Below, one piece after another: positions 16,920-38,953 of a DNA stretch of 64,000 bases. Where the stretch lies: contig NZ_JAQYWD010000002.1 of NCBI RefSeq assembly GCF_030145145.1, positions 62,001-126,000 of the forward strand, given 5' to 3'. This DNA comes from Desulfobacula sp. (GTDB taxonomy: Bacteria; Desulfobacterota; Desulfobacteria; Desulfobacterales; Desulfobacteraceae). Made by a program: the position numbers and the translations under genes. Within the stretch, counting starts at the first letter, position 1. Every line of letters begins with the position of its first letter. The notes under the pieces are model-generated. The model searched no databases and was not told the DNA's origin. It was given only the letters and a program-made list of their open reading frames with translations.

Positions 16920-16976
16920 GTTTATTTCCACTAAATACCCCAGTACGCTTTCGGCAAGGAACATCTCCTTCAATTG
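16920..16976 (-). pseudogene. Remnant of the trigger-factor-like gene 3' end (copy iii)
   Basis: Reads LKEMFLAESVLGYLVEIN on the minus strand, matching the C-terminus of the trigger-factor-like protein at 28 kb (LKEMLIAESALGYLMEIN) with several base changes. Lies in the spacer between the A/T-rich DUF1254 gene and the porin. Related remnants are at 21949 and 25130. Confidence 0.65.
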
Positions 16977-17045
16977 AATCGTTCTTGATCGAAAGATCCG
17001 ATCACGGAACAGGCATTTAGGTCAATTTTTTATCCCGAACCGGGG

Positions 17046-18581
17046 TTACTTAACTAGTTTAAAATCACCTGGTTTCCATATTTTGTCGAACCATTCTTGT
17101 TCTGGACCGTATAAGCGTAAAAGTACGTTAAAGCCTTTGTTAGGAACAGTTTGTACCCAGTTTTTTTCTTGTCCTTTAGGGGCTTCAGGTCCGAAGAAAA
17201 TAGTGACACTGCCATCTTCAGACTTTTTCATGCCTGCTAATTTAGAGTCTACGCCGCCTGTTTTCTGATCCGTTTCTAAAATAGAGCGTGTTTGGTTGTC
17301 GTAAACCATGAATGACCAAAAATCACGGGCAGGAACAGGCCCTGGTAATGTAACGCTATAATTCATACCACCATCAAGCATTTTACCGCTTTCATCCATT
17401 GAGCCAATTTCATAAACTGATCCTTTACCTACAGTAGGCTTGACCATAAAGGGGGTAACGCCGGTTGCAAAAAGGTGGAAGCCAACACGATCATCTATTA
17501 GTCTAGCGCCAGTTTTAGACAAAAATTGATAGCTGCCACTTGAAAGCGGTGAAAACCATTTACGATCAGGATAAAAATAAACATCTGGGTTACGAGGTTT
17601 AAACATTACCCCCTTGTAAGCTGCATTGCCTAAGCTTGCTGCTTCAGTCAATATTTTTTGCATACGTGCATCGGGTTTAAATTCTTTACCTTTTTCAATA
17701 CCAATTGCTTTTGCTAAACCTAATAGCTCTGGGTCACCCGAATTTGCAGGCTCATACTGAATCACTTCATTAAGTTCGTCATATATTGATGAGTCTGTTG
17801 AATGAAGCGTACTGTATTTTTTACCTGATATATTCATAAATTCAACTGGTTGTGGGTTATCAGCTTCTGCAAGTGGGTAAATTTTAATCCCCTTTTTAAA
17901 TTTAGATAAGGTTTCTTCAAGTGATTCATTAGGCAACTGGAATGGGCGTGTTAGCATCCACTGACGGTATGTATTGGTTTTTAATACAATATAACCTTTT
18001 GGAATTTTCCCTTTGTAATCTTTACCTGCAACAAGATATTTTCCGCCTTTACCACCGTCTTGGGCGTTACCTAAACCAATATCACCCACATACAAAAAAT
18101 AGGCATTGTCTAAAATTGAAATTACCGGTGAACCTACTTCAATCACAACAGGTCCATTTTTTACATTGATTTCTGCATGAGCATAAGGAGTAGTTGTATT
18201 AGGTGTTAACCACAATGACCTTGCGTCGATTAATTGCTCAGTAAGGGCAACAGTTTTATTGGGTATAACGCCTATATCACGATGACCTTTTAACATGGCA
18301 TGCATGGCTACTGTTGGTACAGCTGATCCAAATAACTCAAAAGCTCTAGCAGTATCCATAAAGTCATTCGCTTTAATGAACGTTTCATCCGTTGGAAAAC
18401 CGTCTTTATAAGTTAATTCACCTGCGTATTTTGTCATGACTGAATCTGGGGTTAACAAATTAGCGCTAATGTCCGCTTTGTATTTAGGGACATATTCATT
18501 GGCTTTAGCAGCAGTTGAGCTACAACTCATCAGTGCCAGAGTTAAACTCGCTGCAATAAGACTTTTACTTACGTTAATCAT
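17046..18581 (-). CDS. DUF1254/DUF1214 lipoprotein, 511 aa, A/T-rich outlier
   Basis: Differs from the other nine full-length paralogues: the signal is a lipoprotein type (LALMSCSS), the mature start is YVPKYKADISANLLTPDS, and the core reads QDGGKGGKYLVAGKDYKG instead of GPDKGKGGKYLxLPPGYKG. Base composition is clearly A/T-rich with many AAA, AAT and TTA codons. DUF1214 end motifs (NPDVYFYPDRKW, LYGPEQEWFDKIWKPGDFKLV) are normal. Likely acquired by transfer, perhaps from a marine gammaproteobacterium-like donor (guess). A scrap of a resident DUF1254 C-terminus lies just upstream (18612). Confidence 0.9.
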   Translation of the reverse strand: MINVSKSLIAASLTLALMSCSSTAAKANEYVPKYKADISANLLTPDSVMTKYAGELTYKDGFPTDETFIKANDFMDTARAFELFGSAVPTVAMHAMLKGHRDIGVIPNKTVALTEQLIDARSLWLTPNTTTPYAHAEINVKNGPVVIEVGSPVISILDNAYFLYVGDIGLGNAQDGGKGGKYLVAGKDYKGKIPKGYIVLKTNTYRQWMLTRPFQLPNESLEETLSKFKKGIKIYPLAEADNPQPVEFMNISGKKYSTLHSTDSSIYDELNEVIQYEPANSGDPELLGLAKAIGIEKGKEFKPDARMQKILTEAASLGNAAYKGVMFKPRNPDVYFYPDRKWFSPLSSGSYQFLSKTGARLIDDRVGFHLFATGVTPFMVKPTVGKGSVYEIGSMDESGKMLDGGMNYSVTLPGPVPARDFWSFMVYDNQTRSILETDQKTGGVDSKLAGMKKSEDGSVTIFFGPEAPKGQEKNWVQTVPNKGFNVLLRLYGPEQEWFDKIWKPGDFKLVK

Positions 18582-18611
18582 AATTAGATCCTTTTTAATT
18601 TTAATTTAATT

Positions 18612-18653
18612 GGGCGCCTGATCTTGTCAAACCAGGTCTGCTCAGGCCCCTAT
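18612..18653 (-). pseudogene. DUF1254/DUF1214 C-terminal scrap (~14 codons)
   Basis: On the minus strand this reads GPEQTWFDKIRRP, the signature end of several paralogues (compare GPEQAWFDKTWRP at 32.4 kb). It has no gene around it and lies between the A/T-rich outlier and its upstream neighbour. Suggests a resident gene was replaced. Confidence 0.5.
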
Positions 18654-18681
18654 GCTTATTAATTTGTAATACGTGGCGATC

Positions 18682-20208
18682 CTACTTGATCAGGACGACA
18701 TCATCCGGCTTCCAACTCTTGTCGTTGTAGGCCTTGAGCGGTCCATAGATCCTGAAAACCGGGAACCAGCCTTTGCCGGGGACGGTCTCGAGCCAGAACT
18801 TCTCTTTGCCTTTCGGTGGTTTCGGACCAAAGTAAATGTCGATGGACCCATCCGGGTTGGTCCCCGGCAGAGCCTGGCTGCCAATCGACGGGAACTCTTT
18901 ACTGGTCTGCAACTGCGAACGGGTTGCGGGCTCGTAAATGGTCACCGACCAGAAGTCTTTGACCGGCACATTGGGCGGTATGTGCAGCTTGTAGTTCTTG
19001 CTGCCATCGAGGTACTTGCCATCGGCGTCTTTATAGACGAAAAGATACTTCGAACCCACGCCTTCCGGCATCACTGCGGCCATGGCAGGGGTATTTACGA
19101 TGCACCCGTAGTGATAGAGCGAGCGTGCATCAAGGTTTCGGTACCCTCTCTTCACGAAGGCCGCGCTGCCGCCAATGAACACGGTTTCCCACCGCCGATC
19201 CGGGTAGACCTTGGCTTCAGGGTCGCGGGAGTCGAACGCATTTGTCCGCCCCATGGCTGCAGCGAGTTTGGCGGCCTGTTCAAGGATGCGCTGCATGCGC
19301 GCATCCGGATTGAAGGGTTTTCCTTTTTCGATGCCCAGTGCGGCCAGGCGTCCCAGTAGTTCCTTGTTGATGAAATCTACTGGTTCGTGCTCGATGATTT
19401 CGTGGAGCCATTGGAACGCTTCGATACCTTCCGGTGCCAGACTGTTGAGCGGCAGGCCGGTGACGTTGGTATAGCGCCCCTTCCGGCCGGGTTGGTCGAG
19501 AGGATAGACTTTAAGCTGCCTGTAGTAATTCATGGCCTTGTCGCCCTCACCAGGGTTGGCACGCATCAATCCCCACAGCCGGTAAGAGGTCGATCTCACC
19601 ACGAGATATCCTTCAGGGACGGTTCCGTCGTAGCCGGGAGGCAGTAGCAGGTACTTGCCGCCCTTCCCCTTGTCTGGGCCGGTCGCACCGAAATCGACGA
19701 CAAACCGGAAGTAGGCATCATCCAGAGGGCCCATCACCCCGGGCGGCACCTCGATCACCAATGGTCCGTCCTTTTTCAGGTCGATCGTGAGCATCGCGTA
19801 GATACTGTCAACGTTGCCCGTCAACCACAGCGGCTCGGAGTTCATCCGGTCAGCAAAGACCAACACTTCCGACGAACTGCGCGCGCCGTAGTCACGCACC
19901 TGAGCCTTCAGGATTCCGTGCATCGAAAGCGCCGGGATTAAGTCATAATAGGCCTGCGTGGCTCGCTGCAGATCCATTTGGTCCCAGACCCTCTGCGCAG
20001 TCTCCTTGGTGGGGTAACCACCGCCGGTAAATTTCAACGTGCCGAAATCGGTCTTGATCTGTGCCGGCGCCGGTTTGAAGTCCTTGGACGTTTGTTTCGC
20101 TTCAGCGGCGCCCAGCTCGAAGATGGTCTTATCCTTGGCCATGGCTGGATTTACAAGAGCCAGAACTGATCCGAGCAATACCACCATACTAAGTAATTTC
20201 TTCTTCAT
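18682..20208 (-). CDS. Secreted DUF1254/DUF1214 protein, 508 aa (type C, G/C-rich)
   Basis: Start at 20208 follows AAGGAG with good spacing and opens a signal peptide (ending NPAMA); 15 further in-frame upstream codons look non-coding. Motifs: KDFKPAPAQIKTDFGTLKF, DKGKGGKYLLLPPGYDG, GKPFNPDARMQRILEQAAK, NPDGSIDIYFGPKPPKGKE and a C-terminal SWKPDDVVLIK. Closest relative: the 13.7-15.2 kb product. Noticeably higher G+C than neighbours. It follows the fourth sulfatase gene in the same direction after a hairpin and a possible 34-aa ORF. Confidence 0.9.
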   Translation of the reverse strand: MKKKLLSMVVLLGSVLALVNPAMAKDKTIFELGAAEAKQTSKDFKPAPAQIKTDFGTLKFTGGGYPTKETAQRVWDQMDLQRATQAYYDLIPALSMHGILKAQVRDYGARSSSEVLVFADRMNSEPLWLTGNVDSIYAMLTIDLKKDGPLVIEVPPGVMGPLDDAYFRFVVDFGATGPDKGKGGKYLLLPPGYDGTVPEGYLVVRSTSYRLWGLMRANPGEGDKAMNYYRQLKVYPLDQPGRKGRYTNVTGLPLNSLAPEGIEAFQWLHEIIEHEPVDFINKELLGRLAALGIEKGKPFNPDARMQRILEQAAKLAAAMGRTNAFDSRDPEAKVYPDRRWETVFIGGSAAFVKRGYRNLDARSLYHYGCIVNTPAMAAVMPEGVGSKYLFVYKDADGKYLDGSKNYKLHIPPNVPVKDFWSVTIYEPATRSQLQTSKEFPSIGSQALPGTNPDGSIDIYFGPKPPKGKEKFWLETVPGKGWFPVFRIYGPLKAYNDKSWKPDDVVLIK

Positions 20209-20245
20209 ATCTTTTCTCCTTCTGTCCTCCTTGGTCGAACTCACA

Positions 20246-20350
20246 TTACGCATCCGGTGAATACCAGATCGGGCTCTTATAAGCCCGTTCCAGCCCCATC
20301 GCCTTGAGGATGTTTAACATTATCAAGACTCCAAAATCTTTTTTAGTCAT
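20246..20350 (-). CDS. Possible 34-aa protein
   Basis: ATG at 20350 starts MTKKDFGVLIMLNILKAMG and ends SPIWYSPDA-stop. There is no obvious ribosome site; a strong hairpin stands 3 nt before the ATG. A degenerate copy of its first half lies at 25234-25280 after another sulfatase gene. Might be the start of a lost gene or a real small membrane-associated peptide. Confidence 0.3.
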   Translation of the reverse strand: MTKKDFGVLIMLNILKAMGLERAYKSPIWYSPDA

Positions 20351-23640: not shown

Positions 23641-25146
23641 TCAGGGATTCAGGCTCGCCGAGCCTGGATTTGGATATTTCTCCAGTGTTTTCTTGTATTC
23701 CCCGATTGCCTTCATGTAATGAGGGAAGATCCACCCACCCAATGCCAACATGTTATTTTCTTCGCGGGGATCTTGCTCAATGTTGAAGGTGGCAGGCAGG
23801 CTGTTTCCCTCTATCCTGCCGCCGCCAGTTCCTGGCATTGACGGATTTCCTGGGCCGCTCACAAACTGATTGGGATACAAGCGGAACTGACGCCAGCGGA
23901 CCGCAACAATCTCGTCCCCGATAAAGGTGAGAAAAGCCTCGCGATTGGAGTTATCCTGCTTGCCGAGGAGGAAGTCCGTCTGATCGATGCCATCGATGGG
24001 ACGATCTTTCGGAACCTCTGCACCAATGATATTTGCAAAGGTTGGAAAGAAGTCGTGAATCGCGAACATACCATTATTTTTCCCCACCGGGATTTTGCCC
24101 GGCCACTTGATCATGCCCGGTGTCCGTATCGAACCTTCTCGTCCATCACCCAACTCGCCGCTGTACATACCGTTGGAACCACCGCGGAACTCGGCCGGTC
24201 CGCCGAGAGGTGTTGCACCGTTGTCAGAGATATAGATCACGATGGTGTTGTCTTCGATGCCGGACTTCTGGATTGCATCCAGGATTTCGCCCACCGCGTG
24301 ATCGTGTTGCAGCAGCGCATCTGCGTAGGGTCCGTTTTCCGACTTACCAGAGAACTCTGGTGAGGTCACATTCGGATAGTGCGTCTGGGTCAAACCGACT
24401 AAAAGAAAAAAGGGCTCTTTGGTCGCGGCATGTGTATTGATAATTTTCACTGACGCCTTGGCAATATCATCCTCGACAATATGTTTGTATTCAACATCGT
24501 ATTCTCGGACTCTCTTCAATCCATCTTTTGTCGTGCCATCCCAGATTCCGGGTGCCTTTTTTTGGATGGTTTCCTCAGAGAAACCGAGGCGTTCCATTTG
24601 CGGTCGGTACAAGGTCGAATCGCTGGTTTCGATGACCCCCACCCGATACTCGTCAAAACCCTGTCGTACTGGCCAGCTTTGCTCCTCCGAGCCCAGATGC
24701 CATTTTCCAACGTATCCCGTCGCATAGCCCACGCTCTTGAAAATTTCGGCCATGGTAATTTCCTCAGCCTGCAGGGTATTGGGCGTACCTCCGATAATGA
24801 TCGTGCCCAAACCGCAACGTGGTGAATAGCGCCCGGTCAACAGACCCGCGCGTGACGGCGTGCAGCCCGGTTCCACCAGAAACTGGGTAAAGGTCATACC
24901 TTTGGCCCCAATGCTATCGATATTCGGTGTAGCAGCTCCCCGGATCGCTCCGCCCTGAAAGGCGCCGATATCCCCGTAGCCGACGTTGTCAGACAGCATC
25001 AACACGACGTTGGGTTTTTCGGCCTTTTTAGAAGCGGCCGCCGCGTCCTGTGGTGTTGCAGCAACGGCAAGGGTTACCCCCGCAAGCACGCAACCGACAG
25101 CGGCCCACTTGCACGCCTTTCTTGCAAAATTAGATTTGTTCTTCAT
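23641..25146 (-). CDS. Arylsulfatase, Cys-type (sulfatase 2), 501 aa
   Basis: Signal peptide nearly identical to the IS-split copy, then LMLSDNVGYGDIGAF, modification motif CTPSRAGLLTGRYS (Cys95), VGKWHLG and YISDNGATPLGG. Length is typical for the exported arylsulfatase family. AAAAGGAG precedes the ATG. The region in front is a copy of the last ~100 bp of the trigger-factor-like gene, so the ribosome-site and signal-peptide context of sulfatase 1 has been duplicated here. G/C-richer mature portion than sulfatase 1. Confidence 0.93.
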   Translation of the reverse strand: MKNKSNFARKACKWAAVGCVLAGVTLAVAATPQDAAAASKKAEKPNVVLMLSDNVGYGDIGAFQGGAIRGAATPNIDSIGAKGMTFTQFLVEPGCTPSRAGLLTGRYSPRCGLGTIIIGGTPNTLQAEEITMAEIFKSVGYATGYVGKWHLGSEEQSWPVRQGFDEYRVGVIETSDSTLYRPQMERLGFSEETIQKKAPGIWDGTTKDGLKRVREYDVEYKHIVEDDIAKASVKIINTHAATKEPFFLLVGLTQTHYPNVTSPEFSGKSENGPYADALLQHDHAVGEILDAIQKSGIEDNTIVIYISDNGATPLGGPAEFRGGSNGMYSGELGDGREGSIRTPGMIKWPGKIPVGKNNGMFAIHDFFPTFANIIGAEVPKDRPIDGIDQTDFLLGKQDNSNREAFLTFIGDEIVAVRWRQFRLYPNQFVSGPGNPSMPGTGGGRIEGNSLPATFNIEQDPREENNMLALGGWIFPHYMKAIGEYKKTLEKYPNPGSASLNP

Positions 25147-25233
25147 AATTTTCTCCTTTTGGGTTTATTTCCATTAAATACCCCAGTGCACTTTCGGCAA
25201 TGAGCATCTCCTTCAGGCGCTGCAGCCCATCGC
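25130..25233 (-). pseudogene. Remnant of the trigger-factor-like gene 3' end (copy i)
   Basis: Virtually identical to 27954-28057, including the stop that overlaps the sulfatase start by 17 bp. Its left-hand homology ends at GCGATGGG, a string also found in the 34-aa ORF, consistent with a duplication junction at microhomology. Confidence 0.8.
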
Positions 25234-25280
25234 TTTGAGGATGTTTGACATTATTAAGACTCCAATTTTTTTTTAGTCAT
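25234..25280 (-). pseudogene. Degenerate copy of the 34-aa ORF start
   Basis: Starts MTKKK and then loses frame; the nucleotides match the beginning of 20246-20350 up to the GCGATGGG junction. Confidence 0.5.
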
Positions 25281-25953: not shown

Positions 25954-27069
25954 TTAACCCGGCAATAAAATACTCGCAATTTATTTCTTAATGTGATATA
26001 CTCTTCTTCATGGAAAAACGTGACGCAAGAAAACTAAGTACACAGGCCCAGCAGGAACTCCGGGAGATGGCAATCCGTCTCAAGGAATCAGGAAAAACAT
26101 ACAAAGTGATTGCTGAGATTGTTCATGTCCAGCCAACAACGATCTGCGCATGGTATAAAGCTTATCAAAGAGGCGGCAAAAAGGCCGTCAAAATTAAAAA
26201 ACGGGGCAGACCTTCCGGTACCTGTAGGACGTTAACCGCCGCCCAGGAACATGAAATCCAAAAGGCAATCGTTGACAAATGCCCTGATCAATTAAAATTT
26301 CCCTTTGCACTATGGACGCGTATTGCCGTTCAGCAACTCATAAAGGAACTTTTTTCAATTAAAATGCCCATCCGGACAGTGGGTGAATACTTAAAGCGAT
26401 GGAATTACACCCCGCAAAAACCCTTACGCAAAGCTTATAAACAAAATCCAAAGGCCGTATCAGCTTGGTTGAACGAAGAATATCCGGCCATTGCAATAAA
26501 ATCCAAAAAAGAAAAGGCTGAGATTCACTGGGGTGATGAGACAGGTCTTTGTAATGACAGCTATCATGGAAGAAGCTACGCCCCTCGAGGGGAAACGCCA
26601 GCTATTAAAATACATCCAAGATGTCAGCGTGTAAATTTAATCTCAACAGTGACCAACCAGGGCAAGGTTCGGTTTATGATCTACAAAGACAAAATGAATT
26701 CCCAAACATTGATTCGATTTATGAAGCGGCTTATCAAAGACTCTGAACGAAAGATACTGTTAATATTGGATAATCTGAGGGTTCATCACAGCCACATGGT
26801 TAAGGACTGGTTAGAAGATCATAAAACCGAAATAGAGATTTTCTTTTTGCCATCCTATTCCCCGGAACTGAACCCGGATGAGTATCTAAATTGTGATTTA
26901 AAAATCGGTGTTCATAGCAAAGTTCCTGCCAGGACAAAAGAACAATTAGCAAAGAAGACCTTGTCCCATTTGCGGAAGTTGCAAAAGATGCCCCGGAGGG
27001 TGAAAAATTACTTCAAGCATAAGAAAATTTCCTATGCCGCTTGATTATTGTATTTAATTGCCGGAGTAA
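25954..27069 (+). mobile_element. IS630-family insertion sequence, 1116 bp, intact
   Basis: Imperfect terminal inverted repeats (TTAACCCGGCAATAAAATAC at the left; reverse complement of the right end TTACTCCGGCAATTAAATAC; 17 of 20 match) are flanked by a TA dinucleotide on each side (25952-25953, 27070-27071), the target duplication of the IS630/Tc1 group. It carries one transposase gene filling most of its length. Removing the element and one TA restores an uninterrupted 503-aa arylsulfatase frame, so the insertion looks recent. Confidence 0.92.
26010..27044 (+). CDS. IS630-family transposase, 344 aa
   Basis: N-terminal helix-turn-helix region (KESGKTYKVIAEIVHVQPTT), a Lys/Arg-rich linker (KKRGRPSG), then a DDE catalytic domain: first Asp in IHWGDETGLC (~176), second in LLILDNLRVHH (~254) and Glu in SPELNPDEYLN (~290). 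Full length with no stops, so probably functional. It catalyses cut-and-paste transposition into TA. Plus-strand gene inside the minus-strand sulfatase. Confidence 0.93.
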   Translation: MEKRDARKLSTQAQQELREMAIRLKESGKTYKVIAEIVHVQPTTICAWYKAYQRGGKKAVKIKKRGRPSGTCRTLTAAQEHEIQKAIVDKCPDQLKFPFALWTRIAVQQLIKELFSIKMPIRTVGEYLKRWNYTPQKPLRKAYKQNPKAVSAWLNEEYPAIAIKSKKEKAEIHWGDETGLCNDSYHGRSYAPRGETPAIKIHPRCQRVNLISTVTNQGKVRFMIYKDKMNSQTLIRFMKRLIKDSERKILLILDNLRVHHSHMVKDWLEDHKTEIEIFFLPSYSPELNPDEYLNCDLKIGVHSKVPARTKEQLAKKTLSHLRKLQKMPRRVKNYFKHKKISYAA

Positions 27070-27071: not shown

Positions 27072-27970
27072 TTTTCCTCAATACCAGCATTTTTAATAGC
27101 ATTCAGCACCTGGCCTGTGCAATGGTCTAGTTCCATAATGGAATCACCATAAGCGCCAACTCTCGACTTCCCGGTAAATTCCGGTGCTGTCAGGTTTGGG
27201 TAATGCGAGTGTGTCCAACCTACCATCATAAAAAATGGCTTTTTGGCCTTTGCCTGACGCTTGATGAATTCGACAGAAGCATCGGCAATGTCTCCTTCCA
27301 CCTGATGACGGTATTCTACTGTATATTCTCTTACTGCTGTCAAGTTTCCAGTGGCATCTGATTCAAAAATACGAGGCACCACGCTTTCAATAAATTCTTC
27401 TGACATCCCCGTACGTTCCATGCTTTCTCTATAAAGCGTACCATCCGATGTTTCAATGACACCTACATGATATTCGTCAAATCCCTGACGGGTTGGCCAA
27501 CTTTGTTCTTCCATACCTAAATGCCATTTCCCGGTATAAGCAGTTGCATAATCTTTTTCTTTAAACAATTCGGCTATAGTAACCTCTTCTGCAGTAAGTG
27601 TATTAGGAGTACCACCGATAATAACTGTATTCAGACCAACACGTGTCGAATAGCGTCCTGTTAATAATCCTGCCCGTGATGGGGTACAAGCAGGCTCCAC
27701 GAAAAATTGGGTTAACTGCATGCCTTCGCTTGCAAGTTTGTCGATGTTGGGAGTAGGCATCCCACGTACTTCACCTCCGCCAAAAGCACCAATATCACCC
27801 CAACCTACATTGTCAGACAGCATCAGCACGACGTTGGGCTTGTCCGCTTTTTGCGTGGCTGCCGCCGCGTCCTGTGGTGTTGCAGCAACGGCAAGGGTTA
27901 CCCCCGCAAGTACGCAACCGACAGCAGCCCACTTGCACGCCTTTCTTGCAAAATTAGATTTGTTCTTCAT
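27072..27970 (-). pseudogene. Arylsulfatase 1, N-terminal part (split by IS630 element)
   Basis: Contains the signal peptide, metal motif LMLSDNVGWGDIG, modification motif CTPSRAGLLTGR (Cys95) and TGKWHLG, then runs into the element after GIEEN and stops within it (27032). The rejoined gene would encode 503 aa, like sulfatases 2-4. Its ATG lies inside the last codons of the trigger-factor-like gene (17-bp overlap) and its ribosome site GGAG is in that coding sequence, showing tight coupling. This position directly behind the chaperone gene looks like the ancestral sulfatase position. Confidence 0.92.
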
Positions 27971-28730
27971 AATTTTCTCCTTTTGGGTTTATTTCCATTA
28001 AATACCCCAGTGCACTTTCGGCAATGAGCATCTCCTTCAGGCGCTGCAGCCCATCGCCTTGGGCCAGCTCCGCCTCCAATTCTTTGATTGTGGCACCAAA
28101 TTCTTCAGCTTTTTCGGCAATACGGTTGTCCACATCCCTCTGGTCCACTTCGATGCCTTCCTGCTTCGCGATCTGCTTGAGGATCAGCATCAGCCGAATC
28201 CGGTCGTGTGCTGCATGCCAGGCAGTGCTTTCGAGGTCGACACCTTCTTCACCATCGACGGCAAGCTCATCCTTCACGAATCCGTCCGGTATATCAAAAC
28301 TTACCCGTTCCAGAAGTTTGAGGGAAATTTGATCACGGGGATCCTTATCCGACTCGCCGTTGAGAAGTGTATTCAAATCAGGCAGGTCAAACTCGGGCAT
28401 TGGGTAAAACCGAACCATGGCGCTGAAGTCCCTGCCTTTGTTGCACTCGATCTTTTCGACTTCGGCCTGACCCAGGACCTGAATCCCTGCCTCCTTCACA
28501 GCCTCTCGGCCAAACCGCTGGGCAACCTGCCGGGTCAGCTGCTCGCTGATCTCTTTTTCAAACCGTTTTTCAATCACACGCTGCGGCACCTTCCCCGGCC
28601 GAAAACCAGGAAGTTGTGCCCTTCGATAGCCCGCCAGAATATCTTTATAATCATCAGCCAGTTCCGACCAGTCGGCACTGATCGCAAGGCAATGAAGGCC
28701 GTCATCGCTTGTATGCTGCTGCCACTTCAT
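27954..28730 (-). CDS. Trigger-factor-like chaperone lacking the PPIase domain, 258 aa
   Basis: Residues 1-115 match the trigger factor ribosome-binding domain, including the signature GFRPGKVP at residues 42-49, the same position as the ribosome-docking loop of E. coli trigger factor (43-50). After PEFDLPDLNTLL the FKBP-like PPIase domain (about 100 residues in normal ~430-aa trigger factor) is absent, and the chain continues directly with a C-terminal chaperone-type helical region (RLMLILKQIAKQEGIEV, LQRLKEMLIAESALGYLMEI). Start at 28730 overlaps the maturase stop (ATGA); its stop lies inside sulfatase 1. Context suggests a specialised nascent-sulfatase chaperone (inference); ribosome binding is predicted, not shown. 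Confidence 0.85.
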   Translation of the reverse strand: MKWQQHTSDDGLHCLAISADWSELADDYKDILAGYRRAQLPGFRPGKVPQRVIEKRFEKEISEQLTRQVAQRFGREAVKEAGIQVLGQAEVEKIECNKGRDFSAMVRFYPMPEFDLPDLNTLLNGESDKDPRDQISLKLLERVSFDIPDGFVKDELAVDGEEGVDLESTAWHAAHDRIRLMLILKQIAKQEGIEVDQRDVDNRIAEKAEEFGATIKELEAELAQGDGLQRLKEMLIAESALGYLMEINPKGENYEEQI

Positions 28731-30052
28731 CGCTGTTTCTCCGGCTGCCAATGGTCCGCGGCCAGGGTATGGACATCCTTGGCCACTGTTTCCCCCAGAC
28801 CGCGCACAATCCGTTGCACGGGCTGGTCGATGTGAGAAAAAAAATGTTTCCAGCCGCTGCACAGATAATTCAAGCCGGGCTCGCCCCCGGGGGTTTTAAT
28901 GAAACGGTCCTTTGGGCACCCCCCGAAACAGGCAAACTCGTATTCACAGGTGCGGCAGTATTTCGGCAGCAACCCCTCTTTCATTTTTCCGAATCGCTCC
29001 TGCTGTTCGGAAAACGCCATCTGGGAAAGCGGTCTATCCTGAATGTTGCCGACCCGGTACTCCGGGTACACAAAATGGTCACAGGCATAAACCGAGCCGT
29101 CGCGCTCAAGGGCAAGCCCTTTGCCGCACATGGGGCTCTGGAAGCAGAGCGGCGAGGTGTGGCCCATCCAGGTCTCCACGGCCGCCTCAAAATAGTTCAC
29201 ATAGATGCTGCCAAGATCCTTCTTGAGCCATTCGTCAAAGACGCGACAGAGGAAATTACCCCAGTCATCCGGATCAACACACCACGCTTCCACGGCCGAT
29301 CCCTGGGAACCCGGTTTTGCCCGGGGCGAGCCCAGCATGGGCATGGAATCCAAGCCCCATCTTAACGGGGCTGTCTGCTGGAAACCGAGCGGCTCGACAA
29401 TGGGGATAAACTGCATTCTCTTTGAACCCACTTTGTCCCTCAGAAACCGGTACACGTCGACCGGAGATTTTGCAGTGACCCGATTGACGCAGCTCAAGGT
29501 TGCAAAATTGACCTTGTGCTTTTTCAGCAGTTTTACTGAACGCATGACGCGGTCAAAGCTGCCCTGGCCTGATTTATCCTTGCGGTAGCGGTCATGCAGA
29601 TGTTTGGGCCCGTCAATGGAAAGCCCGACCAGGAAGTTGTTCTCATGGAGAAACTCGCACCAGGCATCATCCAGGAGCATTCCGTTGGTCTGCAGATCGT
29701 TCTCACAGCGGACATGGGCCGGGCAGTATGTCTTCTCCAATGCCACAACTTTTTTGAAAAAATCGAGCCCGAGCAGGGTCGGCTCTCCTCCCTGCCAGGA
29801 AAAAACCACTTCCTTATAATTGTGGGATTCAAAATACTGCCGGATGAACGATTCAAGTATCTCATCGGTCATTTTCCAATTTTCAGGTTTTCCCAGCAGT
29901 TCCTGCTTGGAGAGATAATAACAATAGTCGCAATCCAGGTTGCAAAGCGCACCCGTTGGTTTCACCATCACGTGCATGCGCTGTACAGGCTGACCACGAA
30001 ACAAATGACTGACCTGCATTTTTGAGTTCTCTATCATATCAATAATTTCCAT
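28727..30052 (-). CDS. Anaerobic sulfatase-maturating enzyme (radical SAM/SPASM), 441 aa
   Basis: Radical SAM cluster motif CNLDCDYCYY (Cys37, 41, 44 from the 30052 ATG), GGEPTL, QTNG and SIDGP, then a SPASM region with the expected cysteines (CFQSPMCGKG, YACDHF, YCRTCEYEFACFGGCPKDRF, LCSG). This is the anSME pattern: it oxidises the Cys of CxPSR to formylglycine in cytoplasmic, unfolded sulfatases before export. Start uncertain: a TTG at 30067 and ATGs at 30037 and 30019 are alternatives, none with a strong ribosome site. It overlaps the trigger-factor-like gene by 4 bp. Confidence 0.93.
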   Translation of the reverse strand: MEIIDMIENSKMQVSHLFRGQPVQRMHVMVKPTGALCNLDCDYCYYLSKQELLGKPENWKMTDEILESFIRQYFESHNYKEVVFSWQGGEPTLLGLDFFKKVVALEKTYCPAHVRCENDLQTNGMLLDDAWCEFLHENNFLVGLSIDGPKHLHDRYRKDKSGQGSFDRVMRSVKLLKKHKVNFATLSCVNRVTAKSPVDVYRFLRDKVGSKRMQFIPIVEPLGFQQTAPLRWGLDSMPMLGSPRAKPGSQGSAVEAWCVDPDDWGNFLCRVFDEWLKKDLGSIYVNYFEAAVETWMGHTSPLCFQSPMCGKGLALERDGSVYACDHFVYPEYRVGNIQDRPLSQMAFSEQQERFGKMKEGLLPKYCRTCEYEFACFGGCPKDRFIKTPGGEPGLNYLCSGWKHFFSHIDQPVQRIVRGLGETVAKDVHTLAADHWQPEKQR

Positions 30053-30114
30053 TCGTTGAGACTGCAATTGGTTTATTTTTCACTCTTGAAATCTTGTTTT
30101 CTCCCATCGTTATG

Positions 30115-30570
30115 TTAATTCTGACCTTTGGGTATTCTTAAGAATCTGATGCTGTAGCGTTCCTTTGTCACAGCCAGAAAATAGGTTCCGTCCAATACAT
30201 CTTTTTGCTCTGCGTACACCAGGGTATATGTTGATCCCGGATAATTGGTATCACGCAGTTCGACAAAGAGCTGAAGACGATCCTCCTCAATGGTCCACTT
30301 TGCGACAGACACATTAATCTTTTTGGGATTATAATAGGATGCCTTTAAGCTCCCGTCGGGTTTGACATCTTTTATGACAAGTTTATATCCGCCATCCGAT
30401 CGAACCCAATTTCCTTCAAGATGCAGGGCTTGGGCAAATCCACTGTTCTGTTTGACATCCTGCGCTGATTCAGCAAAAACACTATCAACCCATCCGAATA
30501 AGGAAATAACACAAGCCAACACACTGAGAAATATAGATACAATAATTGATTTTCTTTTTAGATTTTTCAT
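30115..30570 (-). CDS. Small secreted protein, 151 aa, first gene of the maturase operon
   Basis: Signal peptide (hydrophobic ~9-28, ending VFA), then a compact domain rich in beta-strand pattern: LEGNWVRSDGGYKLVIKDV...LKASYYNP...VAKWTIEEDRLQLFVELRD, like a small lipocalin- or beta-sandwich-type ligand-binding fold. AAAGGAG precedes ATGATG (30573/30570). Lies 48-63 nt ahead of the maturase in the same direction and is the first gene after promoter copy 3. No family recognised with confidence; the link to sulfatases is by position only. Confidence 0.7.
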   Translation of the reverse strand: MKNLKRKSIIVSIFLSVLACVISLFGWVDSVFAESAQDVKQNSGFAQALHLEGNWVRSDGGYKLVIKDVKPDGSLKASYYNPKKINVSVAKWTIEEDRLQLFVELRDTNYPGSTYTLVYAEQKDVLDGTYFLAVTKERYSIRFLRIPKGQN

Positions 30571-30820: not shown

Positions 30821-32362
30821 TTATTTCATCAACTCAAAATCATTCAGTGTCCATGTCTTTTCTATGTATCCTTTGAGGGGACCATAAAAACGGAAGACCA
30901 CAAAGAAGCCTTTCTTGGGATCGGTTTTTATGAAATTTTTCTCCATCCCCTTGGGTGCTTTTTGGCCGAAGTAAATATCCACGGAACCATCCGGGTTGGT
31001 ATCCACCCCTCGGGTACTGCTGACGGTGATGTTGCCACCGGAATCCAGCAGACTGCGGCTCATGGGATCATAAGCAGTGACCGCCCAGAAGCGTTTGACC
31101 GGAGGATTGGCCGGCACGGTGAGTCGATAGGTATTGTCCCCGAGAAGGTAGTCGCCCTCCTTGTCACGGAAACTGGTCAGGTAGGCAGTGCCCACGCCGG
31201 CAGTTGTAGAAAGAAGGTTCGGCGATACACAAATGGCCTGGTAATGCCAGAGGGTACGGGCATCAATGTCGCTATGGCCGTTGTTAACAAATTCAGTATT
31301 GCGAACGAACATCTTTTCCCAGTGTCGGTTGGACCAGTAGTTGATCTCCTTATCACGGGAAGCATAAACAATGGCCCGGGACATGGCAACGCCCTGCTTG
31401 GCTGCCTGGTCGAGTATTCCGGTCATACGGGCATCTGGATTGAAAGGCTTGCCTTTTTCAAGGCCCAGGGATGCCAGACGACCCAGTTGCTCGGCGCTGA
31501 ACAACTCTGCTGGTTCATACTGAATGATCTCATTGAGCATGGTAAAGGCGGATGCATCTTCCGGAAAAAGTGTGTTAGCGCCCATACCGGAACCATTGAC
31601 GACCGTGGTGTCCCGGGGACCGCTTTCCAGCGGATAAACTTTTAGCCGTTCCTTGAACCAGTTCACTGCCTGGTCGCCGTTGCCGACTTCGCCGAAGCCA
31701 CGCATCATGGCCCAGATCCGGTAACCAGCGGAATGAATCACGAAGTAGCCCTGGGGGACCTTGCCTTTGTACCCTGGGGGCAGAAACAGGTACTTGCCGC
31801 CTTTACCCTTGTCAGGTCCGGTGGGACCGAAGTCGGTGAGGTATTTGAAAACAGCATCATTGGCATTTCCATACATGCCGGCTGGAATCTCCATGACGGT
31901 GGCCCCGTCAACCTTCAGGTCAAGGGTGGCAAAAGCGTAGACCGTCACGTCATTACCGGTCAGGTAATTTTCACTCGGCTTCATGAAGTCGGCCATCACT
32001 GCGAAATCGGAACTGGATTTGAACTTGAAGTCACGAACCTGGGATTTTACAATGCCATAGAGCGAGAGCGATGGCAGGAAATCCATGTAGGCCTGGGTGG
32101 CCCGCTGAAGATCCAGCTCATCGTAGATCCGCTGGGTTGAGGCCTCGTCGGGAAAAGCGCCGCCTTCAAACTTCAGTGTGCCAAAGTTTGTCTTAATCTT
32201 GTCAGGGGCCGGTTTAAAATCTTTGGCAGTTTGTTTCTGACCTGCGGCCTTGAACAGGTTTCTCGTTTCTGCTTCGGACTCAGCATACACGGGTGCTGCC
32301 ATGCTGACTGTCAAAAGTCCTGTCATGATCAGATTAATGAGTAATTTTGTTTTCATTTTCAT
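30821..32362 (-). CDS. Secreted DUF1254/DUF1214 protein, 513 aa (type A)
   Basis: Signal peptide ends APVYA. Shares with the 8.6-10.1 kb product the linker LFKAAGQKQTAKDFKPAPDK, DLQRATQAYMDFLP and the end KTWTLNDFELMK, so the two are a duplicated pair in different operons. Core DKGKGGKYLFLPPGYKG is normal. Last gene of the promoter-4 operon. A 28-nt piece of its 3' end, covering the TWTLND codons, reappears at 43222. Confidence 0.9.
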   Translation of the reverse strand: MKMKTKLLINLIMTGLLTVSMAAPVYAESEAETRNLFKAAGQKQTAKDFKPAPDKIKTNFGTLKFEGGAFPDEASTQRIYDELDLQRATQAYMDFLPSLSLYGIVKSQVRDFKFKSSSDFAVMADFMKPSENYLTGNDVTVYAFATLDLKVDGATVMEIPAGMYGNANDAVFKYLTDFGPTGPDKGKGGKYLFLPPGYKGKVPQGYFVIHSAGYRIWAMMRGFGEVGNGDQAVNWFKERLKVYPLESGPRDTTVVNGSGMGANTLFPEDASAFTMLNEIIQYEPAELFSAEQLGRLASLGLEKGKPFNPDARMTGILDQAAKQGVAMSRAIVYASRDKEINYWSNRHWEKMFVRNTEFVNNGHSDIDARTLWHYQAICVSPNLLSTTAGVGTAYLTSFRDKEGDYLLGDNTYRLTVPANPPVKRFWAVTAYDPMSRSLLDSGGNITVSSTRGVDTNPDGSVDIYFGQKAPKGMEKNFIKTDPKKGFFVVFRFYGPLKGYIEKTWTLNDFELMK

Positions 32363-32422
32363 ATTTTCCTTTTATCTATTCGATTTTCTCAAAGTCGTTC
32401 ATCTACACTTCTTGCTCAATAG

Positions 32423-33934
32423 CTACTCGACCAATTCAATCTCACTCGGTCGCCAGGTCTTGTCAAACCAGGCCTGTTCTGGGCCGTATAGGCGGAACAG
32501 CATGTGCCAGCCCATGCCGGGAACGGTCTGAACCCAGTTACTCTTTTTGCCCTTTGGTGCTTTGGGACCAAAGTAAACGTCGTATGAACCGTCGGCATTT
32601 TTCTGCACTTTCCCTTCAGCACTGGTGATTTCAGGGAAGCGCTGGTCGGTCTGCAACATGGAACGTGTCTGCACGTTGTAGAGCGTAAACGCCCAGAATT
32701 GGTTTGCCGGCACGTTGGGAGGCAGGTGCACCTTGTACGTCTTGCTTCCGTCAAGCCGACGCCCCTTTGAATCACGCATCCCTGCGATATACTGTGTTCC
32801 GCTGCCTACCTTTGGTGTGACCATGGCCGGGGTGATGCCGGTGGCATACATATGGAACCTGGTACGGGCATCCAGCAGGCGTGCGCCATTTCGGGTAAAC
32901 GTATGACTTCCTCCGATCCAGGGGTGTTCCCATCCACTGCCGGGATAGACCTTTGCTTCAGCATCACGGTTCCGATACAGCACAACCCGGGCCGCTGCCG
33001 AACCGACATCTGCCGCTTCTTTTAAAATTTTCTGCATTCGGGCATCGGGATTGAACGGCTTGCCTTTTTCGATGCCGATGGAGGCCAGCATGCCGAGAAT
33101 TTCAGGACTTTGGGATTCGCTCGGCTCTTCCTGAACCACCTTGTTAATTTCATCGAAGTAGCTGACATCCGAAGCATGGATGGTATTCAGGAATTTCATC
33201 GAAATGTCGTGATACTTCACCTTCGAAGCGCTGTCTGATTTGCCCAGCGGGTATAGCTTAAAGTGATCTTTAATGCTTTGTAATCCGGGAGCCGCGTCCC
33301 CATCTTGAAGGAACCCGCGAATCAGCAGCCAGTTTCCATACGTCTGGGATTGGGTTACATGATATCCGTCCGGAGCCTCGCCTTTATAGCCTGGAGGCAG
33401 AATCACGTATTTCCCGCCTTTGCCCTTGTCAGGGCCGGCCAGTCCGAAGTCCGTTACATAGCGGAACCAGAAATCATCAATCAGACCCAGCACATTCGGC
33501 GGCGCTTCCATGACCATCGGTCCTTCTTTCAAATCCAGCCAGAGAAACAGATAGATCACCGTGGTATTTGGTGTCAGCAACTGCACCTTGGAGTCCATAC
33601 GCGGCCAGATGATCGCAGTCTGGTTGTCCGGCCCATATTGTCTGATCCCGTTACGAAACCCGGTAAGTGAGCCTGCCGGTGTGGTCATCATGACACTTTC
33701 AACGGCACGCTGAAAATCAAGCTGATCGTAGATCTTCTGCGCAGTCTCTTCAGTTGGGAAACCATCCTCAAAGGTTAAGGTACCCAATCGGGTTTCCACC
33801 TTGTCCGCAATCGTGATCGATGCGGGGATTTTGGTGGTCATTTTCATTTTTGGTGGGGCCGCAGACAGGGATCCCGCAAGGATCAGGACCATGCATAGAA
33901 CAAGTGCACTTGATATAAACTGTTTAGGTTTCAT
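32423..33934 (-). CDS. Secreted DUF1254/DUF1214 protein, 503 aa (type D)
   Basis: Signal peptide ends GSLSA. Pair of the 7.0-8.5 kb protein (KMTTKIPASIT, GFRNGIRQYGPDNQTAIIW, VLGLIDDFWFRYVTDFG). Motifs: DKGKGGKYVILPPGYKG, GKPFNPDARMQKILKEAA and TWRPSEIELVE. The start codon lies 11 bp inside the small conserved-protein gene, which supplies its ribosome site, so the two are translationally coupled. First DUF1254 gene after the regulator/small-protein pair. Confidence 0.9.
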   Translation of the reverse strand: MKPKQFISSALVLCMVLILAGSLSAAPPKMKMTTKIPASITIADKVETRLGTLTFEDGFPTEETAQKIYDQLDFQRAVESVMMTTPAGSLTGFRNGIRQYGPDNQTAIIWPRMDSKVQLLTPNTTVIYLFLWLDLKEGPMVMEAPPNVLGLIDDFWFRYVTDFGLAGPDKGKGGKYVILPPGYKGEAPDGYHVTQSQTYGNWLLIRGFLQDGDAAPGLQSIKDHFKLYPLGKSDSASKVKYHDISMKFLNTIHASDVSYFDEINKVVQEEPSESQSPEILGMLASIGIEKGKPFNPDARMQKILKEAADVGSAAARVVLYRNRDAEAKVYPGSGWEHPWIGGSHTFTRNGARLLDARTRFHMYATGITPAMVTPKVGSGTQYIAGMRDSKGRRLDGSKTYKVHLPPNVPANQFWAFTLYNVQTRSMLQTDQRFPEITSAEGKVQKNADGSYDVYFGPKAPKGKKSNWVQTVPGMGWHMLFRLYGPEQAWFDKTWRPSEIELVE

Positions 33935-34427: not shown

Positions 34428-34694
34428 TCATTTTAAAGGTAAAATCCCTAATTTGGTGGCCTTTAGCACGGCTTCCCTACGTTTGAAGACCTGGAGTTTC
34501 TGGTAGATGCTTCTCAGGTGGGATTTCACCGTTACCGAAGATATAGATAAATGTTCGGCAATTTCCTTGTTTTGCAGGCGTTGGGAGAGCAATTCCAGTA
34601 CATCGAGCTCACGATGGGTCAGTGGCTCCACCAGCGGTTGTGATGGCGGGGACTTCCAGCCACATAAACAGCCCGGCCGGTGCGGTATTTTCAT
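34428..34694 (-). pseudogene. MalT-like regulator A, detached LuxR-type HTH domain
   Basis: From about 34660 the frame reads [19 protein letters not shown] and [20 protein letters not shown], a complete LuxR/FixJ-type helix-turn-helix, then a short tail. It is out of frame with the 717-aa ATPase/TPR part upstream. The linker normally preceding this HTH (present in the second regulator, ~110-130 aa) is missing, so a deletion with frameshift separated the DNA-binding domain. Whether any translation reaches it is unclear. Confidence 0.85.
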
Positions 34695-36762
34695 CGGCGA
34701 TCCGTGCCCATTCGAGTGCCGCTGTCACATCCTTGCGCAACAATGCGACTCGCGCCCGGCAGGAATGGGCGATACCCATATATTGAGCATCGCCAAGATC
34801 CATGGCAAATGTTTCCAGCAGGGTCAGGGATAGGGATGCTGCATCATGCTGTTTAAGGAGTTGCTGTGTCAGTGCCAGCCCGGCAATGGAATCGACTGCT
34901 GCACGGGCATGCATAATATATCGCTGTTGCACTACCCAGGTGAAGGACTCCAACGCCGGCGCCAGCTCATTTGCCTGAAAGTGGGTGCAAGCCCTCATAT
35001 AAGCGCTCCAGGTATCGGTGTAAATGATATTGCTGTGGGCAGCGACCCTGTGCAGCCGCTTTGCCTCCACCCGGCCGCGAAGCAGATCACCTGAAAGATA
35101 GTATACAAAGTAGAGCCCAGCCACCAGGCGCGAAAGATAGATGCCTTCCAGGTTCCCTGTTTCACTAATGCGGGCATCCAGACCATTGATTGCCTTTTCA
35201 GTGTTTCCTTCCATACACAGGGCAAGGTGGTACTGCAGCTCCAGCAGCCCCCTCACCAGACCCTGCTGCTCTGGCAGGTGTATCCGCGCTCCCTCGAAAC
35301 ACTTGAGGCTCAAGGACCCTTCTCCCGACCAGTAGTGGAGTTCCCCCTGCAACAGGGACAATTCTCCCAACAGGGAAGGATCGGTACTTTCCGGGTTCAC
35401 AAGGGAGGTTACCTTTTCAACGATCAGGGCAAGCCGTTCAAACTGAAACCGCTCGTAGGCACTCCATGCATCTGCCAGCAGAAGAGCAGGTCTGGTCTCA
35501 CGAACCGCTTTTGGAATCATCCTAAACCCTTTTTCCAGGACATACCACTTGTCATCGTTCAGCAGATTTCCCCGGTATTTCTCCACGAGATCTGCGGCTT
35601 TCTCGTCATGTCCGCCCCGTATCGCATATACCAGCGCTTCCTCCAGAAGTCCCTGGGACTCGAACCAGTCGCCAGCCCGGCCATGGAGCTCAGCTATCTT
35701 CTCACTAATCCTATCTCCATGGAATTGCCGTTGCAGAAGTTGTTGAAACAGATGGTGGTACCTGAACCACTGATTTTCGGTATCCAGGGGAATAACAAAG
35801 AGGTTGTTTTTCTGCAGCCAGCCAATCACTTCTCTGCCATCCATGCCGACCTCGGCCAATAAATGATCTCCCTTGCACAGGGCATCGCACAAGGGAGCGC
35901 AGAATCGATCAAGAATTGAAATGGCCATTAAGAACCGTCCTAGACCGGCCGGCTGTTGATCCAGCACCTCACTGACAAGGTAATCAACCACGTAACGAGT
36001 GGTGCCCTTTAGGTCCAGCAGTTTTTGTCCGGGATTCTCCTGCCCTTGGATCGCCAGGACCGCCAGGTGCAGCCCGGTCACCCAGCCTTCGGTCTTTTTG
36101 GCCAGTGCCTTGGTAATCTCTTTTTCAATTTTATATTCTGTCGCAGCCTGTAAATATCGAACGATCTCATCCTCAGAGAATCGCAAATCCCGCATTCGCA
36201 GTTCGGTGAGCATTCCCCTGGCGCGCAGGGATGAAATGGGTAAAACCGGATCTCTTCGGCCGACCAGAACCAACTGCATTGATGGCGGTGGATGGTGTAT
36301 TAACAGACCGATAAACGCATTGACCGCTTTATTCGTTATATGATGGATATCATCCAGCACAACAATAAATTCCTGATCGATCTGCTCTATTTCATTGACC
36401 AGGGTCGTTGATAGAAGGGTCTCCGGAGGCAGATTCCGCACATTAATCAGGGCCATGGTTTCCTTGACAGCATGGGGAAACATCGTCTGTATTGCGGCGA
36501 GAAGATAGGCAAGGAACTGGTGCAGATCATCATCATTTTTGTCCAGGGACAACCATGCATTTTGTTTTCCGCACCCTTCGAGCCAGTAACTGACCACCGT
36601 ACTTTTTCCATACCCCGCCGGTGCTGAAACCAATACCAGGGGCCGGTCAGGGTGTTTACCCAGGCGCTCCAGCAGTTCAAGCCGGGGCACATGATTGACG
36701 GGTATCGGAGGCCGGTAAAGTTTAGTGCGTAGCAGTGGTATATTTGAAGATTCAGTTTCCAT
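34609..36762 (-). CDS. MalT-like (LuxR/STAND) regulator A, ATPase and TPR part, 717 aa, HTH lost by frameshift
   Basis: Starts [15 protein letters not shown], typical of MalT-type activators; Walker [11 protein letters not shown] (~50), Walker [13 protein letters not shown] (~135), sensor motifs, then a long TPR-like helical region to ~700. The protein ends abnormally ([15 protein letters not shown]) at a deletion: the next bases encode the LuxR HTH in another frame. Intact MalT-type proteins are ~850-900 aa. As it stands it can hydrolyse ATP and sense a ligand but not bind DNA. First gene behind promoter copy 4, apart from a remnant. Confidence 0.85.
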
Positions 36763-37864: not shown

Positions 37865-38446
37865 TTAGGATCTAACAAATTCAAGCAACAGAGAATAATC
37901 ATGCTCATCTGCCATTTTTAAAGCTGTAATATATTCTTCTCTGGTTTTATTGTGATTAGCAAGACTCTCTCCACCCCAGGAGAAAACTTCTGTGGCGAAT
38001 AATTTTTCAAGAATTAAATCTGCCATAAGTCGTGCATGTCTACCATTTCCGTTTGAAAATGGATGTATGAAGACTAACCTGTGATGAAATCTGGCTGCGA
38101 ATTCATCTGGAGGATAAGTATTATACTCTATCCACGCATGAGAATCATCACACAAGGTTTGTAATTCCACTTCAATTTGAATATGTGGGATTCCCAGATT
38201 TTTTTTGGATTTTCTAAATTTACCTGCCCATTTCCAGACATTAGAAAACATTTGTTTGTGAAGTTTACAAATAAATTTGATATTTAAAATGTCATTCGTT
38301 CTTAAATTGTCACTCCAAATGATCGCTTGGTTGATATTTTCCATTTCTAAAAAATCGAGTTCACCACGGGTTGTAATATGTGTCGGCAAAAGCCCTTTGA
38401 GTTCGTCATAATCGAGAGGGGTAGCACCGTCAGCATGGTCAATCAT
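37865..38446 (-). CDS. Fic-domain protein (mobile mystery protein B), 193 aa
   Basis: Contains the full Fic catalytic motif HPFSNGNGRHAR (catalytic His128), so AMP- or other NMP-transfer activity is expected; no obvious inhibitory (S/T)xxxE(G/N) helix is seen, and control probably comes from its partner. N-terminal ATPLDYDELKGLLPTHITT is characteristic of mobile mystery protein B. Its ATG shares one base with the stop of the mobile mystery A gene (TAATG). Acts in the cytoplasm; a toxin-like or epigenetic role is suspected for such pairs. Confidence 0.88.
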   Translation of the reverse strand: MIDHADGATPLDYDELKGLLPTHITTRGELDFLEMENINQAIIWSDNLRTNDILNIKFICKLHKQMFSNVWKWAGKFRKSKKNLGIPHIQIEVELQTLCDDSHAWIEYNTYPPDEFAARFHHRLVFIHPFSNGNGRHARLMADLILEKLFATEVFSWGGESLANHNKTREEYITALKMADEHDYSLLLEFVRS

Positions 38447-38922
38447 TATTTATCCTTCTCCCACAACAGAGAAGGGGAATCAATTATTTCTTCCACCATA
38501 TTATTAAACGCTTTTTTAGCATTTTTAGATGAAAGTCCTTGAGCTTCTAAATTCATAGTGTGCATAAGCCTGTTCATACGTTTTTGAGAAATAATTGAGG
38601 CTTGTTTTCTGACAGTATCGTCTAAGCTTGTTCGAGGTACAAACCCATAAACAAAAACACAATCAAGCTTATCTGCAACTCGATTCATAGTTTTAAGGGT
38701 AAGGCTTCCAGTAATCTCATCCTGTTCTATTCGAGGGATTCTAGATTTGCTGACTCCAAGCCGGTCAGCAAATTGTCGCATATTCATTCCCAAAGCATCA
38801 CGGATGGCACGAATCCATCCATTCATCGGCCTGTTTACCGAGGCGATAGTTGAAAACCGATTCAAGGTGTCATCCAATTGTTCTCGAATTATTTTTTTTT
38901 GTTTTTTTCTCATTTCGTTCAT
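38446..38922 (-). CDS. Mobile mystery protein A (HTH regulator), 158 aa
   Basis: Central Xre-type helix-turn-helix (MNMRQFADRLGVSKSRIPRI), with the family motif SLTLKTMNRVADKLDCVFVY after it. Pairs with the Fic-domain mobile mystery B gene directly downstream. Probably represses its own operon through the A/T palindromes upstream. Start uncertain (38922 or an upstream codon at 38943); there is no clear ribosome site, so leaderless-like initiation is possible. The A/T-rich composition of the pair and its promoter marks it as a mobile module. Confidence 0.85.
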   Translation of the reverse strand: MNEMRKKQKKIIREQLDDTLNRFSTIASVNRPMNGWIRAIRDALGMNMRQFADRLGVSKSRIPRIEQDEITGSLTLKTMNRVADKLDCVFVYGFVPRTSLDDTVRKQASIISQKRMNRLMHTMNLEAQGLSSKNAKKAFNNMVEEIIDSPSLLWEKDK

Positions 38923-38953
38923 AATTATATATGCATTTAGCAAACCTTAGTAC

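Follow-up and report, generated by a model that had tools for sequence, protein, structure and literature searches.

The window, by which we mean the whole 64,000-nucleotide stretch of Desulfobacula sp. DNA that was analyzed, carries a locus, putatively on one transcript, that encodes an anaerobic sulfatase maturase (anSME), a short protein derived from trigger factor (TF), and a series of sulfatases. The anSME (28727–30067, minus strand) has Radical_SAM and SPASM domains without a SEC-C tail and scores 492.6 bits on TIGR03942, above the cut-off of 349.45. Its TGA stop sits in an ATGA that is also the start, at 28730, of the 258-residue PPIase-less TF-derived protein (short TF; 27954–28730, minus strand), and the end of this ORF at 27954 overlaps the start of the first sulfatase at 27970 by 17 bases. 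Both overlaps had been reported in a first-pass annotation of this DNA and were confirmed on the sequence. By eye, the last codons of the anSME gene carry the probable Shine-Dalgarno sequence of the TF gene. A 152-residue ORF at 30115–30573 gave no convincing family match in profile searches and is left out of the system.

The marks of type I sulfatases, the CTPSR motif and a PF00884 match, are present in four sulfatase genes of the window, one of which is interrupted. The 5' part of this first sulfatase (27032–27970, minus strand) carries the leader KWAAVGCVLAGVT and CTPSR at residue 95 but matches PF00884 (4.5e-34) over profile positions 1–233 only; the 3' remainder (25341–25979, minus strand) matches positions 232–301. 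Inside the broken gene lies a gene for an IS630-like DDE transposase (26010–27044, plus strand; DDE_3 and HTH_33). Downstream on the same strand as the broken gene are three intact sulfatases, all with CTPSR, at 23641–25146 (PF00884 2.6e-44, leader KWAAVGCVLAGVT), 22007–23533 (1.4e-48, leader KWAAVGCVLAGVT), and 20406–21929 (1.6e-50, leader KWAALGCVLAGVT), all minus strand. The last part of the TF gene is present a second time, as a 36-codon copy with 94% identity, 5' of the next sulfatase after the broken one (25133–25240, minus strand). The first-pass annotation had missed both the interruption and the leader common to these sulfatases.

The short TF shares with trigger factor (Tig; TIGR00115, PF05697/PF00254/PF05698) a ribosome-docking N-domain with the GFRxGKxP motif as well as a chaperone domain, of which the C-terminal part is kept. 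It differs in that the FKBP domain is missing, the C-domain is shortened, the gene is linked to an anSME, and the protein is a second copy beside a full tig. In Pfam searches, Trigger_N (PF05697) covers residues 4–121 (9.1e-22), with the docking motif GFRPGKVP at residues 42–49, and Trigger_C matches in two stretches (1.1e-13), the best of which aligns profile positions 75–161 of 162 with residues 159–245. Scanned alone, the stretch before this best part gives a weak match to profile positions 18–50 (E 0.03, below the cut-off), so Trigger_C is shortened at its start and middle. FKBP_C (PF00254) is absent from the window short TF at E up to 1 and was not found by profile search in the short TFs of the other carriers either; in an alignment of TFs, the gap in the short TFs spans the whole FKBP domain. 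The TIGR00115 score, 122.5 bits, is below the curated cut-off of 180.2. The position of the docking motif, the C-terminal chaperone-like region, and the missing FKBP domain are thus as the first-pass annotation had described them. The genome also encodes, elsewhere, a separate full-length tig (L001) with Trigger_N, FKBP_C, and Trigger_C covered over 1–162.

An AF2 model of the 258-residue protein (pLDDT 87.4, pTM 0.77) predicts a TF N-domain followed by a TF/SurA-type C-domain without FKBP, in keeping with the PPIase-less TF-like chaperone first proposed. Its N-domain matches trigger factor itself (1t11_B; Z 14.5, rmsd 2.0, 112 aligned). The modeled C-terminal part resembles holdases of the SurA/MPN555 type, with VIA-align matches to 1m5y_B (SurA; Z 8.1, rmsd 4.1, 118 aligned) and 1zxj_C (MPN555; Z 9.0, rmsd 4.8, 143 aligned). 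SurA is periplasmic, however, whereas no leader was seen by eye on the short TF. Shortening of the C-domain may have reduced the holding capacity of the protein.

Short TFs are found in five genomes of four families, the window genome and four more in three further families, and this evidence base of five loci comes from draft assemblies of a single phylum. A sulfatase gene follows the short TF in all five loci, and an anSME directly precedes it in four, so the neighborhood on which the first-pass annotation had built recurs elsewhere. One contig (G787) holds just the last 49 residues of the anSME; in G330 the TF gene is cut by a contig break, and a fragment of an anSME lies at the end of another contig. 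The ATGA overlap of anSME and TF is present in every locus with a readable junction (4/4). The spacing between TF and sulfatase is a gap of 11–27 bases in G093, G533, and G330 and of 788 bases in G787, where two small opposite-strand ORFs intervene; the 17-base overlap is therefore not a conserved feature. Another 20 anSME genes from the phylum showed no TF-like ORF in the fetched flanks, 0.6–1.5 kb downstream. A scan of 84,980 genomes, made with two peptide patterns that derive from two sequences and that G533 does not match, gave 34 loci: one is G093 (L056), and no further short TF was read among the other 33, in which TF frames are at least 436 residues long in 31 and cut by contig ends in two (L073 and L080). 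We read these 33 as probable ordinary tig genes. A plasmid search gave a single weak TF match.

In a tree from which the G330 fragment was left out, the four complete short TFs group as a single clade (support 100) apart from the tigs of their carriers, and this separation rules out that the short TF is a piece of the tig of its own genome. Comparison of the short TFs of G533 and G330 gives a dN/dS of ~0.32 over 145 codons; the E-values, the presence in five genomes, and this ratio rule out a chance ORF. TF duplicates are known in some bacteria, according to a survey (PMC11559001), and the short TF could likewise be a second, general TF or a hitchhiker with no specific link to sulfatases. We regard this as very improbable, as the short TF was found only at sulfatase loci, in 5/5 genomes, and the single pair compared shows purifying selection. 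The same survey reports that the ribosome-binding domain is usually lost from second copies, a loss attributed there to dosage constraint, and that in 367 of 390 multi-TF genomes the docking motif is kept in only one TF (PMC11559001). The short TF runs contrary to this reported pattern: its ribosome-binding domain is kept, with GFRxGKxP retained in all four short TFs that have an intact N-domain, and it is the PPIase domain that is lost.

The anSME systems AtsB, ChuR, and anSMEcpe resemble the window locus in having a TIGR03942 maturase beside Cys-type sulfatases; known anSMEs, to our knowledge, act without a TF-like partner gene. The anSMEs linked to short TFs form one clade of four (support 100/100) in a tree from which the G787 fragment was left out, and the 20 other anSMEs, from a search in which no more than four first-look candidates were scored in each genome, are 39–49% identical to them by blastp. 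All four linked anSMEs with a readable end terminate in W.P.K, an ending present in 0/20 of the others. The overlap of the two genes, the clade that short TFs and linked anSMEs each form, and this shared tail are what would be expected if the short TF were a chaperone of the anSME itself, aiding the folding of the radical SAM enzyme or its receipt of Fe-S clusters. That role seems quite improbable to us, because the 20 other anSMEs have no TF neighbor in the fetched flanks and the common sulfatase leader is left unexplained; moreover, part of the W.P.K tail may be only the Shine-Dalgarno sequence of the TF gene.

The leader WA(A/V)(V/L)GxVL is present in all nine linked sulfatase genes, a count that is circular, the pattern having been derived from the same nine leaders; its absence elsewhere and the identity of leader versus body are the informative points. 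It occurs in 0/18 control sulfatases and nowhere else in the fetched loci (six-frame search of every locus), and the leaders are more alike across genomes than the catalytic bodies of the sulfatases. Cross-genome pairs of representative linked leaders (n = 9, from five of the nine leaders, with a same-genome pair at 16 of 16 excluded) match at 9–12 of 16 positions, compared with 5–8 for Sec-like controls. The controls derive from 59 sulfatase matches in 18 TF-less genomes, from which 30 loci were fetched and 18 control sulfatases recognized by script. Leaders of 12 were compared (6 Sec-like and 6 Tat-like, sorted by eye), leaving out three without a leader and three others, mostly near-repeats. 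The script placed five of the nine linked leaders correctly and mis-sited that of G787; the remaining leaders were read directly from the loci. In the window, the CTPSR cysteine site falls at residues 95–99, ~80 residues after the leader tryptophan. All PF00884 matches of the five carrier genomes are at short-TF loci, in searches at E up to 0.001 and at E up to 1e-10. The common leader suggests that these sulfatases in particular are recognized as clients; alternatively, its conservation could serve a different export or sorting factor and not the TF. Sulfatases with export leaders are present in TF-less anSME genomes of the phylum too; the short TF is therefore not a general need of anSMEs, and a tie between the TF and export in general is ruled out.

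The chaperones of reductive dehalogenases, PceT and RdhT, offer a comparison for a leader-directed role. PceT retains its PPIase domain, which the short TF lacks; the presumed client here is a sulfatase whose leader is Sec-like, and the partner is a radical SAM maturase. What the systems have in common is that a TF-type chaperone is encoded together with a single exported enzyme: PceT is the dedicated chaperone of PceA, binds its Tat leader, and accompanies PceA at ~1:1 in the soluble fraction (PMC8905343). A PceT-like short TF would bind the leader of the finished sulfatase precursor off the ribosome, protect it, and pass it to Sec, linked to the anSME only via their common client, and the unusual conservation of the linked leader fits such a role. 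We nonetheless consider it unlikely: the docking motif is retained (4/4) though most second TFs lose it (PMC11559001), and the TF start overlaps the anSME stop instead of following the client gene. The first-pass annotation had known of no described system of this kind. Our literature search indeed found no paper joining TF with anaerobic sulfatase and chaperone, or with sulfatase and formylglycine, but PceT is a precedent for a dedicated TF-type chaperone (PMC8905343).

The linkage of the short TF with an anSME and leader-tagged sulfatases suggests a special helper that holds sulfatases open until they are activated. We think it somewhat probable, on sequence grounds, that the short TF arose from TF when the PPIase domain was lost and serves as a dedicated holdase which, together with the anSME encoded next to it, acts on the exported sulfatases of the locus, the sulfatase encoded beside it being its presumed client. 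The short TF would dock at the ribosome exit through GFRxGKxP and grip emerging sulfatases, probably by the WA(A/V)(V/L)GxVL leader, delaying folding and Sec export; the anSME would be made by coupled translation and turn the CTPSR cysteine into formylglycine, and the activated precursor would then be let go for export. We infer all four steps: docking, grip, conversion, and release. Overall, the interpretation put forward in the first-pass annotation is partly supported. For formylglycine sulfatases, the locus presents a candidate timing factor that would let the maturase get to its site while the exported enzyme is still unfolded and in the cytoplasm, and its presumed clients bear a recognizable tag. 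If this model holds, the combination of TF, anSME, and leader could serve, anaerobically, to make activated sulfatases or aldehyde-tagged exported proteins.

A truncated TF that keeps the ribosome-binding domain is also known from plant plastids, where Tig2 consists of this domain only and has a proposed role in ribosome assembly (PMC11731035); the short TF differs in keeping part of the chaperone domain and in sitting at a sulfatase locus. More tentatively, and with some doubt on our part, the dedicated holdase could form a cotranslational modification station, in which the PPIase-less TF at the ribosome exit reads the sulfatase leader and, before the chain folds and is exported by Sec, presents the nascent formylglycine site to the radical SAM maturase. 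The one-chain counterpart of such a station would be an anSME ending in SEC-C. A literature search for SEC-C with sulfatase or radical SAM gave no paper naming SEC-C among the matches listed. In SecA, SEC-C is found in the tail, which contacts the ribosome and SecB, and a SEC-C-like motif ends 10 of the 20 TF-less anSME genes sampled in the phylum.

The gene for the anaerobic sulfatase-maturating enzyme (anSME; 28727..30067, minus strand; TIGR03942 at 492.6 bits vs a cut-off of 349.45) overlaps by ATGA the gene for a 258-aa trigger factor (TF)–derived protein (short TF; 27954..28730, minus strand; Trigger_N plus a shortened Trigger_C), whose end shares 17 bases with a sulfatase start. The first-pass annotation's description of this arrangement, including GFRPGKVP at residues 42–49 and the missing FKBP domain, is confirmed. 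The first sulfatase is split by a transposase gene (26010..27044), which we take to be IS630-like, and three intact sulfatase genes come after it. The five PF00884 matches in the genome represent four genes, all at this locus. A copy of the TF tail (25133..25240; 36 codons, 94% identity) precedes the second sulfatase (23641..25146), suggesting that tandem duplication probably gave rise to the sulfatase copies, carrying along the TF gene end and leaving the tail copy as a scar.

Pfam detects Trigger_N in the 258-aa protein at 9.1e-22 but no FKBP domain; the best Trigger_C stretch covers profile positions 75–161 of 162, with a weak match to 18–50 as well (E 0.03). The separate full-length TF gene (tig) that the first-pass annotation proposed to look for is present in the genome, with Trigger_N, FKBP, and Trigger_C domains. 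An alignment of the 258-aa protein with another short TF and 20 full-length TFs, drawn from 31 whose frames are whole, shows a single gap that takes in the entire PPIase domain and the beginning of the C-domain, plus a second, smaller gap. The structure prediction, also proposed earlier, is confident (pLDDT 87.4, pTM 0.77). Its structural matches are to the N-domains of TF (1t11_B, Z 14.5, rmsd 2.0, 112 aligned), to TF as a whole (3gty_X, Z 13.5, rmsd 6.9, 251 aligned), and, for the C-part, to SurA (1m5y_B, Z 8.1, rmsd 4.1, 118 aligned). The protein is homologous to TF. Because it failed the tests for PPIase, full C-domain, and TIGR00115, we do not class it as TF proper; plausibly, it is a TF-derived dedicated chaperone, of the same kind as PceT but a new variant.

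The short TF is the reverse of the common second-TF pattern. In PMC11559001, several TFs are reported in 390 of 15,575 genomes, with the docking motif kept by one TF only in 367 of the 390 and by several in 23; extra copies are mostly without the N-domain, whereas the short TF keeps it. Tig2, as portrayed in PMC11731035, retains the docking domain alone. Within the literature collection searched, TF together with sulfatase maturation gave no report.

Short TF genes beside anSME or sulfatase genes, for which the first-pass annotation proposed a neighborhood search, recur elsewhere. Among 145 related genomes, 126 had TF matches, nearly all ordinary tig genes with open frames >400 aa, and the only second short TF (43% identity) was that of G093, the sole genome in its family. 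G330 came from an overlapping phylum-level sample of 395 genomes, and further overlapping searches of the family (22 genomes) and class (29 genomes) of G330 added G533 and G787, respectively; an order-level search (370 genomes, likewise overlapping) found no short TF beyond the window genome and G093. The order anSME, ATGA, short TF is seen in G093 (locus L033), G533 (L092), and G787 (L125, where the contig begins inside the anSME gene and the last 49 residues are present), with a sulfatase gene downstream in all three. In G787, 788 bases separate the short TF from the sulfatase, with two small ORFs on the opposite strand between them; these ORFs (L125 932..1587) look toxin–antitoxin-like by eye and gave no match in a Pfam scan. 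In G330, one contig end carries a TF fragment followed by a sulfatase, while an anSME fragment lies at the end of a different contig. At E up to 1e-10, all PF00884 matches in these genomes (two in G533, one in each of the others) sit at short-TF loci. Full-length tig is present in four of the five carriers and was not found in G533 (72% complete). Carriers are scattered over four families, making up 2 of the 370 genomes searched in the order and 3 of the 29 from the other class, which suggests that the anSME/short-TF unit may spread by transfer.

Four linked anSMEs form a single clade (support 100/100), as do the four complete short TFs (support 100, quick tree), separate from four carrier tigs. 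Short-TF dN/dS is ~0.32 between G533 and G330 (145 codons). Searching 390 genomes of the phylum for anSME (E up to 1e-60) yielded 20 positive genomes, including two carriers (the window genome and G330); the other 18 hold 20 anSME genes, none with a TF-like ORF in flanks reaching 0.6–1.5 kb downstream. The proposal of a dedicated chaperone for sulfatase maturation is strengthened and, on genomic grounds, plausible.

In each of the nine linked sulfatase genes, the start encodes basic residues and WA(A/V)(V/L)GxVL, a pattern found nowhere else in a six-frame translation of 1.12 Mb (167 overlapping loci) and absent from other exported proteins listed in the window cluster. In best register, five representative linked leaders match across genomes at 9–12 of 16 positions (nine pairs), compared with 5–8 for Sec-like (13 pairs) and 5–10 for Tat-like (14 pairs) control leaders. 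In fixed register, all nine give 8–12 of 16 across genomes, and 15–16 for the closely related G533 and G330. Catalytic bodies share 29–52% identity across genomes (local alignment), except for one close pair (G533b/G330, 98%); the two G533 sulfatases have bodies only 35% identical (local), yet 15 of 16 leader residues alike. We read the leader as a putative recognition tag. The short TF would be a natural candidate reader, because PceT reportedly binds the leader of PceA, its client (PMC8905343). According to PMC3920027, anSME accepts Cys-type sulfatases, which are described as typically cytosolic; the linked sulfatases carry Cys at this site together with export leaders.

Among the 20 TF-less anSME genes, 10 have a SEC-C-like CPCG motif at their end, resembling that of SecA, whose SEC-C contacts the ribosome and SecB. 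Pfam SEC-C was detected in 4/4 scanned proteins with the motif, in 0/2 TF-less anSMEs without it, and in 0/3 TF-linked anSMEs. Some sulfatases adjoining SEC-C anSMEs are without a leader (L100, L120). A parallel between SEC-C and TF-linked anSMEs is suggestive only; sulfatases bearing Sec-like or Tat-like leaders also occur in TF-less genomes, which speaks against a strict rule.

Around the window sulfatases lie ten DUF1254/DUF1214 proteins and an OprB-type porin (7022..20253, 30821..33934, 39712..41271); L092 has a protein of similar appearance at 9460..11001. The region 34428..36762 encodes a LuxR/MalT-like regulator with an AAA domain within a long ORF; because what looks by eye like a LuxR-type HTH is encoded in a second ORF that overlaps it (34428..34694), the gene may be frameshifted. 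At 37865..38943, a Fic-domain protein adjoins an HTH protein.
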